A stretch of 34,149 nucleotides of DNA, taken from Candidatus Sulfotelmatobacter sp. (GTDB taxonomy: Bacteria > Acidobacteriota > Terriglobia > Terriglobales > Acidobacteriaceae). Below are positions 27,245 through 30,906 of the stretch, piece by piece; positions within the stretch are counted from its first letter, which is position 1, and the number at the start of each line of letters is the position of its first letter. The position numbers and the translations under genes are program-made. The notes beneath the pieces were generated by a model. The model was given only the letters and a program-made list of their open reading frames with translations. It was not told the DNA's origin and made no database searches. The DNA is taken from positions 1 through 34,149 of the forward strand of contig JASHPH010000331.1 in the NCBI GenBank assembly GCA_030038255.1, written 5' to 3'.

Positions 27245-28075
27245 ATGGGCAGACGATGGTATTTGACGCTGGTCGTTACGATGTTCCTCGCGACCGCTGC
27301 CTACACGGCGGACGATCGTAATCCCCTCGCAGGCGACCCCAAGGCTGCGAAGGCCGGCGAGTATGAGTTCCGCATTAACTGCGCGCTCTGTCACGGTCTC
27401 GGCGCGCGCGGCGGAGGGCGCGGGCCCGACTTAACGCGGGCAGTGAAGAAGCACACGCACTCTGACGCGGAGATGTTCCAGGTCATCAGCAACGGCATTC
27501 CGGGCACGGCGATGCCGGCGAACGGCACAAACGGCCAGGGCGTCGGCATGACTGACGAGGAAATCTGGCAGATCATCACTTACATCCGCAGCCAGGAAGT
27601 GAAGGCACCGGCGAAGGCATTGGGAAACGCAGGACGCGGCAAAGACCTGTTTTTCGGCGACGCGAATTGCTCGCTCTGCCACATGGTTGAGGGCAAAGGC
27701 GGCAGGCTTGGCCCGGAGCTCACTGGCGTAGGCGGATCGCGCACGCGCGAGGCGATCATCGACTCGGTGCGCAATCCCAGCCGGCGGCTGGCTTGGGGAC
27801 TGACCGAGGCGACGAAGGAGTTCCCGCAGGAGTATGAAAGCGTGACTGTCGTGACGGCGGACGGGAAAGAAATCAAAGGCGTGACGCTGAACGAAGACAG
27901 TTTCAGCGTGCAGATCATGGACGCGAACGAGAAGATTCATCTGCTCGAGAAGAGCACGCTGCGGTTGTTTCAGAAGTCGAGGCAGTCGGCGATGCCGAAG
28001 TACGACGCCGATGTCTTGAGCGATAAGGAACTGGAAGACATCGTGGCGTTTCTGGTGAGCGTGGGGGCGAAATGA
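27245..28075 (+). CDS. Diheme cytochrome c, periplasmic
   Basis: This 276-residue protein has a signal peptide (about 1-22) and two haem-c motifs, CALCH (46-50) and CSLCH (142-146). The first domain has a GTAMP axial Met near residue 90. The second is interrupted by a strand-rich insert (VTVVTADGKEIKGVTLNEDSF) and ends with an SAMPKY Met. This resembles the Planctomycete/Verrucomicrobial haem-binding arrangement. It overlaps or directly precedes the PQQ dehydrogenase and probably carries its electrons. An AGGTG site precedes the ATG. The preceding 225 bases (27020-27244) show nothing recognisable. Confidence 0.9.
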   Translation: MGRRWYLTLVVTMFLATAAYTADDRNPLAGDPKAAKAGEYEFRINCALCHGLGARGGGRGPDLTRAVKKHTHSDAEMFQVISNGIPGTAMPANGTNGQGVGMTDEEIWQIITYIRSQEVKAPAKALGNAGRGKDLFFGDANCSLCHMVEGKGGRLGPELTGVGGSRTREAIIDSVRNPSRRLAWGLTEATKEFPQEYESVTVVTADGKEIKGVTLNEDSFSVQIMDANEKIHLLEKSTLRLFQKSRQSAMPKYDADVLSDKELEDIVAFLVSVGAK

Positions 28076-28120
28076 GTATGCGCGCTCGGCGAGACAGCCG
28101 CGAAGTGGCGGGATATGAAA

Positions 28121-28142
28121 GCCCGGCACGGCAGTGCCGGGC
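28121..28142. repeat. Perfect REP-like palindrome at the cytochrome-dehydrogenase junction
   Basis: GCCCGGCAC-ggca-GTGCCGGGC is a 9-bp perfect stem with a 4-base loop. It lies 46 bases after the cytochrome stop and would code for part of the dehydrogenase only if that gene started at 28072. Its type fits dispersed acidobacterial hairpins. Confidence 0.6.
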
Positions 28143-28191
28143 CCGGTCAGACGTGAGTGCGAGTCCCGTAAGGACGACACAATGCCGATTC

Positions 28192-29784
28192 GTGTCCGTA
28201 AATTCAATTGCGACTTTATTTCTGCTTTTCTTGGTCGCGGGCATCGCGATTGCCTCCCACGCCCAGGTCACGTTCGAGAGGCTGGTCAACGCCACGAAAG
28301 AGCCCCAGAACTGGATGACTTACTCCGGCGATTACTCGGGAAGACGCTTCAGCAAGCTTGACCAGATCAACCTCGGAAACGTGCGTTCGATGGTGGCGAA
28401 GTGGGTGTATCAGACTGCCGCGACGGGAAAGCTCGAAACTACGCCGCTGGTCGTCGACGGAATCATGTACGCGACTGCGCAGGACGATCGTGCCTTTGCG
28501 CTCGACGCCCGGACCGGGCGGCCGATCTGGATGTATCAGCGTCAAATTCCGTCAGACATTCGCCCGTGCTGCGGACACGTGAATCGAGGACTGGCCATCT
28601 TGGGTGACAAAGTTTTTCTGGGCACGCTCGACGCGCATGTGATCGCACTCGATGTAAAAACCGGCGCGGTCATCTGGGATGCGACCGCAGCCGACTATCG
28701 TACTGGGCACAGCTTCACCGTCGCGCCGCTGGCGGTGAAAAATCTGATTGTGATCGGCATTTCCGGCGGCGAATACGGCGTACGCGGCTTCATCGACGCC
28801 TACGACGCCGACACTGGCGCGCGCAAGTGGCGCTTCTACACCGTGCCCGGGCCGGGCGAGCCGGGACATGACACCTGGGAAGGTGATTCGTGGAAAGTTG
28901 GCGGCGCGCCCGCGTGGAACACGGGCACGTACGATCCGGCGACGAATCAGATTTTCTGGCCGACGGGGAATCCTTCGCCGTCGAATCGCGGCGAGGGCCG
29001 CGCCGGCGACAATCTGTACAGCAATTCCCTGCTCGCGCTCAATGCCGACACGGGCAAGCTGAACTGGTACTTCCAGTTCACTAAACACGACGAGCACGAC
29101 TGGGACGCGACGCAGGTTCCGGTGATGATTGATGCGGGCGGCAAGCACCTGATTGCGCAGGCCAATCGCAATGGATTTTTCTACGTGCTCGATCGTACGA
29201 CGGGAAAGCTGATCTCGGCGACAGCGTACGGCAAGCAGACATGGAATGACACGAAGGACGCCGATGGGCGGCCGATCGCTAACAAGAACGCGTCGCCGAC
29301 GCTGGAGGGGCACACGGTGTGCCCGGGAGCGTTGGGCACGACTAATTTCATGGCGCCGACCTACGATCCAGTGACGGAGTGGTTCTACGTCACGGCCCGC
29401 GATCAGTGCGACACGTTCTCGACCGCTCCGCAGCCCTACGAGGCGGGACACGCGTTCTACGGCAGCGCATATTTTCCGTCGGAGGAAGCCGAGCCGTATC
29501 TGGGATTTCTAAAGGCGATCGATCCGGCGACTGGCGAAGTGAGAGAAAAATTTCAGCACACTTCGCCAACGTGGTCGGGCGTTCTCTCGACTGCCGGTGG
29601 CCTGGTGTTCAGCGGAGACGCGGAAGGAAACTTTATCGCCTTTCAGGACAAGACGCTCAGTCCGCAGTGGCACTTCCAGATGGGAGCGGCGGTCTATGCC
29701 GCGCCGATGGCCTTCGCCGTCGACGGGAAGGAATATGTAGCAATCGCGGCGGGAAGCGCAATCTACGCGTTCGGACTCCCTTAG
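28192..29784 (+). CDS. PQQ-dependent alcohol dehydrogenase (quinoprotein), lanthanide-type metal site
   Basis: This quinoprotein dehydrogenase propeller oxidises alcohols in the periplasm using PQQ. Taking the GTG at 28192 gives 530 residues with a clean signal peptide (TLFLLFLVAGIAIASHAQ). An ATG at 28072 (overlapping the cytochrome stop) would add 40 arginine-rich residues that include a palindromic repeat. Key residues are the vicinal disulfide CC (126-127), metal ligands E194 (GGEYGVRG) and N260 (TGNPSP), catalytic Asp303, and Asp305 at +2 (EHDWD). An Asp at +2 is the XoxF/PedH mark of lanthanide binding. Tryptophan-docking repeats (AFALDARTGRPIW, ALDVKTGAVIW) are present. Its electron partner is probably the adjacent cytochrome c. 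Confidence 0.9.
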   Translation: MSVNSIATLFLLFLVAGIAIASHAQVTFERLVNATKEPQNWMTYSGDYSGRRFSKLDQINLGNVRSMVAKWVYQTAATGKLETTPLVVDGIMYATAQDDRAFALDARTGRPIWMYQRQIPSDIRPCCGHVNRGLAILGDKVFLGTLDAHVIALDVKTGAVIWDATAADYRTGHSFTVAPLAVKNLIVIGISGGEYGVRGFIDAYDADTGARKWRFYTVPGPGEPGHDTWEGDSWKVGGAPAWNTGTYDPATNQIFWPTGNPSPSNRGEGRAGDNLYSNSLLALNADTGKLNWYFQFTKHDEHDWDATQVPVMIDAGGKHLIAQANRNGFFYVLDRTTGKLISATAYGKQTWNDTKDADGRPIANKNASPTLEGHTVCPGALGTTNFMAPTYDPVTEWFYVTARDQCDTFSTAPQPYEAGHAFYGSAYFPSEEAEPYLGFLKAIDPATGEVREKFQHTSPTWSGVLSTAGGLVFSGDAEGNFIAFQDKTLSPQWHFQMGAAVYAAPMAFAVDGKEYVAIAAGSAIYAFGLP

Positions 29785-29825: not shown

Positions 29826-29853
29826 TTGACGGCGCGGCGTGTTCCGTAATACT
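29826..29853 (+). promoter_or_regulatory. Sigma70-type promoter of the structured RNA locus
   Basis: TTGACG (29826-29831) and TAATAC (29847-29852) are separated by 15 bases, slightly short but with two strong hexamers. Transcription would start near 29859, about 12 bases before the Shine-Dalgarno sequence. It stands outside any gene, 42 bases after the dehydrogenase stop. Confidence 0.65.
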
Positions 29854-29883
29854 CTGCGCTTACACCGGAAAGGAGGTGGTCTG

Positions 29884-29946
29884 ATGACAAGTTCTGAAGG
29901 CAGTAGTAGAGGTACTCATAGACCAGGTGAGGTGGCTGAGACTTAG
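29884..29946 (+). CDS. Candidate 20-residue leader peptide
   Basis: An ATG follows AAAGGAGGTGG with optimal spacing and encodes MTSSEGSSRGTHRPGEVAET. The codons used (AGT, AGA, ACT, CAT, TCT) are unlike the GC-rich usage of the neighbours, which suggests the nucleotide sequence is constrained for RNA structure. The stop codon lies inside the CTTAGAGC stem. It may be a regulatory leader peptide whose translation changes downstream folding, or a chance ORF in an ncRNA. Confidence 0.45.
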   Translation: MTSSEGSSRGTHRPGEVAET

Positions 29947-30132
29947 AGCAGGTCGCTCTAAGCGGGGCTTCGGGCGCGGCGTTTGAACCATGCGCCGGAA
30001 GCTACAGCCCGCATACTACCGGCGAATAAGGATTGATTCCGCCCGGCGGGAAGGTCGCGCCGGGATCCCGGAGTTGCCGTAGAGGCCACGTAGAGTGACC
30101 ACCTCTTGGTCAATCCCAAACAGTCCACCGGG

Positions 30133-30171
30133 CGGCCCACGAGCTTCGTGCTTGTGGGCCGTTCTGTTTTT
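30133..30171 (+). terminator. Rho-independent terminator
   Basis: CGGCCCACGAGC (30133-30144) pairs with GCTTGTGGGCCG (30150-30161) at 11 of 12 positions, loop TTCGT, followed by TTCTGTTTTT. It ends the structured RNA well before the next gene. The remaining 30172-30384 shows nothing I recognise. Confidence 0.88.
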
Positions 30172-30384
30172 GCGTGAACTTCCTTCGCCGCGGATTGACG
30201 CGGATTCAAACAGATTTTCGCGGATCACCGGCCAGAATCAGTTCGTCGGACTTGATCTGTCGGCGCACTTCGCGCCACGAGCAACGAGCCGCCGATCAGC
30301 TTCATTACAAAAACAGTTGTTGATTGTCTGGGCATCGGCGTATTCTGTTCGACTTACGTTTGCGATCTCATGGGGAGGACCACA

Positions 30385-30906
30385 GTGAAACTTAGGGGGA
30401 GCATTATCATACTTCTGGCGGCGGCTCTATTGGTCGCCGCGCTGCCCGGTATCGCAATAGGGCAGGACAAAGCGACCGCACAGGAGGTTATCGCCAAAGT
30501 CCGGGAAGCGGCCGTTGCCTTGTCGAAAAGCGGCGACGTAGCTCAGTTCAACAAGAGGCCCAGCCCGTGGATCTGGGCAGATACTTATATTTTCGTTCTC
30601 GACTGCGACAAGAAAATCACCGCCGCTCATCCTTTAAGACCGGATACGATCGGCGCACCACTGGCGTCGGTGAAGGACGTGAAGGCCAAGAATGTCTACC
30701 CGAATCCCGGCCACTTCTGCGAGGATGCCCGGAAGCCCTCGGGCACATGGATTGAGTACTCCTGGGTGAAGCCGGGTGAGACCGAGCCCTCGCGCAAGAT
30801 CAGCTTCGCCTTGGGGGCCGCGGGAACGCCGTATGTGGTGTCGGCCGGTATCTTTGACGATGCCGCGACCATCGCTGATCTGTCGAAGCTGCGCACACCG
30901 CAGTAG
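30385..30906 (+). CDS. Secreted single-Cache-domain protein
   Basis: From the GTG at 30385 the product has 173 residues: a signal peptide (MKLRGSIIILLAAALLVAAL, cleavage near GIAIG) and one sCache_2-like domain (about 30-170). Typical segments are WIWADTYIFVLDCDKKITAAHP, split here by its WADTYIFVLD core, the GTWIEYSWVKPG strand pair, and KISFALGAAGTPYVVSAGIF. GGGGAGGA at 30372-30379 with a 5-base gap fits this GTG better than the ATG at 30370. There is no transmembrane or signalling domain, so it is a free periplasmic ligand-binding protein. The ligand is unknown. Confidence 0.82.
   Translation: MKLRGSIIILLAAALLVAALPGIAIGQDKATAQEVIAKVREAAVALSKSGDVAQFNKRPSPWIWADTYIFVLDCDKKITAAHPLRPDTIGAPLASVKDVKAKNVYPNPGHFCEDARKPSGTWIEYSWVKPGETEPSRKISFALGAAGTPYVVSAGIFDDAATIADLSKLRTPQ

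Follow-up and report, generated by a model that had tools for sequence, protein, structure and literature searches.

The block at positions 29826 to 30171 of the window (the whole stretch of DNA analysed, 34,149 nucleotides from an acidobacterial genome) is a real free-standing RNA gene with a promoter, a strong fold and a terminator. Judging from sequence and covariance-model comparison, the RNA is a divergent homologue, in Acidobacteriota, of the small RNA (sRNA) Ms_IGR-5 known from Actinobacteria, and this homology is solid. The overall interpretation, to which somewhat better than even chances are given, is that of a regulatory RNA, a divergent Ms_IGR-5 homologue that is usually single-copy, in which a translating ribosome probably gates the fold. 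The features on which the argument rests are as follows.

29826-29831, plus strand: -35 promoter element TTGACG; TTGAC(G) is kept in the genus alignment
29850-29855, plus strand: -10 element TACTCT (relatives' consensus TAATCT; spacer 18), register taken from the genus alignment
29861-30171, plus strand: predicted transcript
29863-29866, plus strand: 5' strand of helix P0, CACC, pairing with GGTG at 29926-29929; based on cross-phylum covariation and the minimum free energy (MFE) fold of the window
29867-29883, plus strand: extended Shine-Dalgarno (SD) sequence GGAAAGGAGGTGGTCTG, assigned by pairing with the 16S 3' end
29877-29882, plus strand: 5' strand of helix P1, pairing with 29920-29925 in a hairpin around the start codon; based on pairing probabilities
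29884-29946, plus strand: micro-ORF, translation MTSSEGSSRGTHRPGEVAET, ATG to TAG; conserved open frame
29929-29934, plus strand: second SD-like motif, GAGGTG, within the ORF and 6 nt ahead of its last sense codon; recognised by sequence
29931-29938, plus strand: 5' strand of helix P2, GGTGGCTG
29940-29948, plus strand: 5' strand of helix P3, GACTTAGAG, including the stop codon and pairing with 30103-30111
29949-30102, plus strand: variable hairpin domain, including the helix 29962-30012
30099-30111, plus strand: alternative partner CCACCTCTTGGTC of 29921-29935, genus-invariant; its pairing excludes P1, P2 and P3
30112-30117, plus strand: conserved unpaired segment AATCCC of the 3' box
30121-30129, plus strand: 3' strand of helix P2, CAGTCCACC
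30130-30171, plus strand: intrinsic terminator with a 15-bp stem and a T tract

The block is intergenic and lies between a PQQ dehydrogenase gene (28072-29784) and a Cache-domain gene (30370-30906; domain identified by Pfam). The first-pass annotation had described it as a structured RNA with its own promoter and terminator, and the promoter-like hexamers, the hairpins and the terminator (15 pairs and a T tract) are found where that annotation had placed them. Its claim that such a density of structure is unlikely by chance is borne out by folding: the plus strand of 29826-30180 reaches -160.4 kcal/mol vs -135.4 (sd 6.5) for dinucleotide shuffles, which corresponds to a z of -3.8, with none of 100 shuffles as good. 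Of the promoter it had proposed, the TTGACG element is conserved in the genus and stands, whereas TAATAC at a spacing of 15 does not, the conserved -10 element being TAATCT/TACTCT with a spacer of 18. The transcript start, near TACACC, is predicted from the promoter spacing and from the point at which conservation begins. Homologues outside the strain, on which the proposal of a conserved RNA gene depended, are found by blastn in 33 of the 61 genomes searched (its own genome counted), all in the window's genus. Compensatory changes in the stems are likewise present: the pairs of the helix at about 29962-30012 are kept in same-genus relatives, with changes on both sides.

No matching family had been recognised at first. 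This part of the annotation has to be revised, as RF02471 (Ms_IGR-5) aligns with the window over model positions 1-184, its full length, in a cmscan search (26.8 bits, E 2.3e-4). The Rfam comparison thus yields a family match that falls below the RF02471 gathering score of 45 bits; no Rfam family matches the locus at gathering level, and the window copy is outside RF02471 by Rfam's own cut-off. Two further covariance models were used. The first, R1, describes the 5' module and includes acidobacterial rows, and for this reason a separate model, R2, was built from 21 sequences, all actinobacterial. R2 confirms the relationship, finding the window at 29861-29946 with 44.9 bits (E 1.6e-11). The RF02471 model is above its threshold at Zixibacteria loci and at one acidobacterial locus, with 55.9, 52, 50.9 and 50.3 bits at L065, L270, L222 and L165, respectively. 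The homology is regarded as solid because the full-length alignment, the R2 match and the above-threshold loci outside Actinobacteria all point to it.

The two RNAs are collinear over the full length of RF02471. Both contain the 5' block ACAC..GGAGGUGGUC, the GUGAGGUGGCUG block and the AAUcCC-CAGUCACC box ahead of the terminator, and both are standalone genes. They differ in that the variable domain of the window RNA is longer, its P2 carries a bulged U, and its ORF has 20 codons and starts with ATG, in contrast to about 12 codons and TTG, GTG or ATG in Ms_IGR-5. The host is a member of Acidobacteriota, whereas the family description of RF02471 names Actinobacteria, and the micro-ORF and P2/P3 are absent from the Rfam structure. 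Ms_IGR-5 was reportedly found in Mycobacterium smegmatis by Li et al. in 2013. RF02471 is filed as an actinobacterial sRNA without assigned function; in the few papers accessible here, it is treated as an annotation entry. The RNA is produced in Streptomyces (PMC8780764, PMC8079986).

The distribution of the RNA was followed with a pattern built from the shared blocks, GGAGGTGGTCN{22,52}GTGAGGTGGCTG, and with R1. The pattern, applied to 84,980 species, returned at least 120 stretches; among the matches listed, 110 are actinobacterial, 9 acidobacterial and 1 from Zixibacteria. R1 places the RNA in three phyla: 83 of the 396 sampled genomes of Acidobacteriota, 130 of the 296 of Actinomycetota and 35 of the 98 of Zixibacteria. 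In these counts, some of the weakest matches may be false, and the strict filters applied when scoring the phylum samples may have passed over weak copies. Two model matches, L285 and L194, were excluded as probably false; the latter probably lies within a protein gene. Most of the genomes with the RNA have a single copy, and in the window's own family nearly every member sampled possesses it. By these sequence criteria, the RNA is homologous across at least three phyla. A phage or plasmid origin was also considered and rejected, with no pattern match in viral contigs and no blastn match in plasmids.

Genomic context bears on whether the RNA acts on its neighbour. A comparison of neighbour genes across phyla found none shared except in one two-locus cluster; clade-specific neighbours do occur, among them a THAP4/nitrobindin-like gene that lies downstream of the RNA in 40 actinobacterial loci and is convergent, on the opposite strand. 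Consequently, the RNA is considered free-standing and likely to act in trans. If the RNA were a cis-acting leader or attenuator controlling the gene that follows, in the window the Cache-domain gene at 30370, this would account for its short ORF, its alternative helices and its terminator. These are the parts of leader-peptide attenuators, where translation of a short ORF chooses between helices beside a terminator, as it would here. Unlike in those systems, the terminator of the window RNA ends a free-standing RNA. This explanation is very unlikely and was rejected on synteny: there is no conserved same-strand downstream gene, the only neighbour family shared between phyla being confined to the two-locus cluster, and in the 40 actinobacterial loci the next gene faces the other way. 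As a separate observation, the RNA adjoins GCV_T-like (YgfZ type), class IV aminotransferase (PabC type), THAP4/nitrobindin-like and rhodanese genes in L044, L049 and about 40 actinobacterial loci, an arrangement that is clade-specific.

A free-standing, single-copy, structured RNA also invites comparison with 6S RNA and Ms1, which share these properties, and Ms1 is one of the actinobacterial free-standing structured sRNAs that have a comparable length. Binding to RNA polymerase in the manner of 6S or Ms1 is, however, extremely improbable for the RNA studied here. Rfam gave no match to a 6S or RNA-polymerase-binding family up to E 10, M. smegmatis Ms1 and IGR-5 are listed as separate sRNAs, and Ms_IGR-5 is not named in the main text of the mapping of polymerase-bound RNAs in M. 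smegmatis, M. tuberculosis and S. coelicolor. Membership in this class was rejected, there being neither a sequence nor a covariance match.

The 5' module also shows complementarity to 16S rRNA. The extended SD GGAAAGGAGGTGGTCTG forms 17 contiguous pairs, 4 of them G-U, with the 16S 3' end ..GGCTGGATCACCTCCTTTCT, which is that of the window's family; a search for 16S in the window's own draft genome gave no match. It is the strongest 16S-tail site in a scan of the window limited to stretches with an SD-like core. Among 204 distinct relatives, the complementary run measures 15-20 nt in 186, and the median 16S duplex is -30.8 kcal/mol vs -18.2 when the GGAGG core alone is kept, values that refer to a set partly chosen by a pattern containing GGAGGTGGTC and to the acidobacterial tail applied to all phyla. 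In the same-family relatives L176-L189, the SD block reads GGAGGATGATCCAGCC, and its 16S complementarity, interrupted by one inserted base, reaches further toward the 3' strand of helix 45.

The micro-ORF, which begins directly 3' of the SD, reads ATG ACA AGT TCT ... GAG GTG GCT GAG ACT TAG. It had been overlooked in the first-pass annotation, according to which no protein explained the block. Its conservation is that of a reading frame: at loci found by the pattern, the frame with the start is open in 151 of 151, vs 7 and 0 for the other two frames. The 115 loci found by the model are not bound to the exact search pattern, and the frame is open in all of them (other two frames: 48 and 16). 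Start codons are ATG, GTG or TTG in 98 of these 115, and all 17 remaining loci have AUU, AUC, AUA, CUG or ACG 7-9 nt past the SD. Stops in relatives include TAG, TAA and TGA, and lengths range from about 10 to 23 codons, so that start, stop and length differ while remaining in frame; indels within the ORF in the genus alignment are multiples of three. A ribosome-profiling study of M. abscessus found that MS_IGR-5 homologues carry ribosomal reads both in this species and in M. smegmatis, and cautioned that sRNA footprints need not signify coding (PMC4974804). Frame conservation and these mycobacterial footprints indirectly support the view that ribosomes probably read the micro-ORF.

In one alternative, the long SD could serve as a decoy that binds the 16S 3' tail and withholds 30S subunits, translation of the micro-ORF being incidental. 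Family-wide complementarity of about 17 contiguous nt, far past an ordinary SD, fits such a function, as do the weak or near-cognate start codons of many relatives. Nevertheless, a decoy leaves unexplained why the frame and the stop are so strictly kept and why a covarying P2/P3 helix and a 3' box are conserved, and it is judged unlikely.

The structural evidence concerns helices P0 to P3, all of which are present in the window's unconstrained MFE. P0 joins the 5' end to the GUG ahead of AGG, and its fourth pair covaries across phyla (GC, AU, CG, UA). P1 has pairing probabilities of 0.77-0.96 in the window. The 3' half of the ORF pairs at long range with the conserved 3' box directly ahead of the terminator: in P2, the ORF codons GGUGGCUG pair with CAG..ACC of the 3' box, and in P3 the stop-codon region pairs with the strand immediately 5' of AAUCCC. 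In 33 diverse sequences, P0, P1 and P2 are 87% paired vs 29-41% when the strands are slid, and both-side-changed cells number 19 vs 9.4 in shuffles, less variation being possible in P2 because the pattern search fixed one of its strands. In the enlarged set, own P2 and P3 strands pair markedly better, scoring -3044 vs -2427 (sd 37) for swapped strands. Within each of the three phyla, the same comparison gives z values of -6.5, -6.7 and -10.3, from permutations that ignore phylogeny below the phylum level. Unconstrained folds of 143 relatives give P2 a mean probability of 0.55, with values above 0.5 in 80. These comparisons of sequence argue that the ORF codons pair with the 3' element and that covariation conserves P2/P3.

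Two further pairings were considered. The alternative helix between 29921-29935 and 30099-30111 is equally invariant in the window's genus and weaker by only 2.6 kcal/mol; it is compatible with an RNA that has two states, but may also be fortuitous. A feedback in which the 3' box would cover the SD is energetically possible in the window. It was rejected as a conserved feature because the strand-swap test found no covariation between SD and 3' box in any phylum (z -1.4, 0.2 and 0.1).

Whether the codons of the micro-ORF are kept for their amino acids or for their pairing can be judged from the codon after GTG. The Ala codon GCT is replaced by Pro (CCT) together with the 3' box CAGGCCACC, by Ser (TCT) with the matching boxes CAGACTACC/CAGATTACC and by Thr (ACT) with the matching boxes CAGTTCACC/CAGATCACC. 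In one actinobacterial group (L240, L242, L247, L248 and L253), GGAGGTGGC is read in another frame, giving SGGGSS and not EVA, with the ORF open and the stop at nearly the same place. As the amino acid shifts with the pairing and this group is frame-shifted, the comparison favours translation as a physical act over a peptide product. The RNA could otherwise be a stable mRNA for a micro-protein of 10-23 amino acids with a conserved C-terminal (R)EVA motif, in keeping with a frame, start and stop preserved in every relative and with the ribosome protection of mycobacterial MS_IGR-5 (PMC4974804). However, the N-terminal half is variable, the core residue may be A, P, S, T or H, of which P, S and T track the 3' box, and the SGGGSS group retains the RNA motif in a different frame, which makes a peptide product distinctly unlikely.

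The preferred interpretation, a fold gated by a translating ribosome, would operate as follows. The long SD would capture a 30S subunit, and initiation would be weak because the start codon is folded in P1 and, in many relatives, is not AUG. A ribosome translating as far as the stop codon would melt P2/P3 and could pause at that point, its anti-SD paired with GAGGTG, for which a duplex with the 16S tail of -11.7 kcal/mol is calculated. Opening of P2/P3 would free the 3' box AAUCCC..CAGUCCACC for pairing in trans or for protein binding, and the state of the RNA would therefore report whether ribosomes initiate on it. A broader proposal, tentative and on the doubtful side, is that across phyla the RNA senses translation initiation as such: the whole 16S tail would be captured in front of a start codon that is poor, being folded and often near-cognate (AUU, AUC, AUA, CUG or ACG), and only successful initiation would open P2/P3 and free the 3' box. 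If this is true, the RNA would gauge, for the whole cell, how stringent initiation is or how many 30S subunits are free.

SgrS and RNAIII are dual-function sRNAs, in which one small transcript is both structured and translated, and the window RNA resembles them as a small structured transcript with predicted translation. Unlike in SgrS and RNAIII, its own ORF codons supply one half of a conserved long-range helix, and at the positions where pairing is conserved the amino acids vary. The protein gene infC starts at AUU, and some relatives of the window RNA similarly start at AUU, AUC, AUA, CUG or ACG behind a strong SD. In contrast to infC, the window RNA and its relatives are structured sRNAs with a frame of 10-23 codons, and the start codon of the window copy is ATG. 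The analysis widens the range of the Ms_IGR-5 RNA to Acidobacteriota and Zixibacteria, mostly as a single copy per genome. It also describes a newly recognised family anatomy, in which a micro-ORF is combined with a sequence complementary to nearly all of the 16S 3' end and with a long-range helix that is partly coding. An sRNA without assigned function thereby becomes a candidate, testable ribosome-gated switch.

Two observations concern the sequences flanking the RNA. Immediately 3' of the terminator, at 30189-30216 on the plus strand, lies the repeat CGCGGATTGACGCGGATT, which is above chance; GGATT repeats resembling it also occur 3' of the RNA in the related loci L009, L016 and L020. On the minus strand, at 28096-28141, an Acido-Lenti-1 RNA (RF01687) scores 41.9 bits, above threshold. 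Since this RNA overlaps the opening codons of the PQQ dehydrogenase ORF when that ORF is taken to run from 28072, the protein probably begins further downstream.
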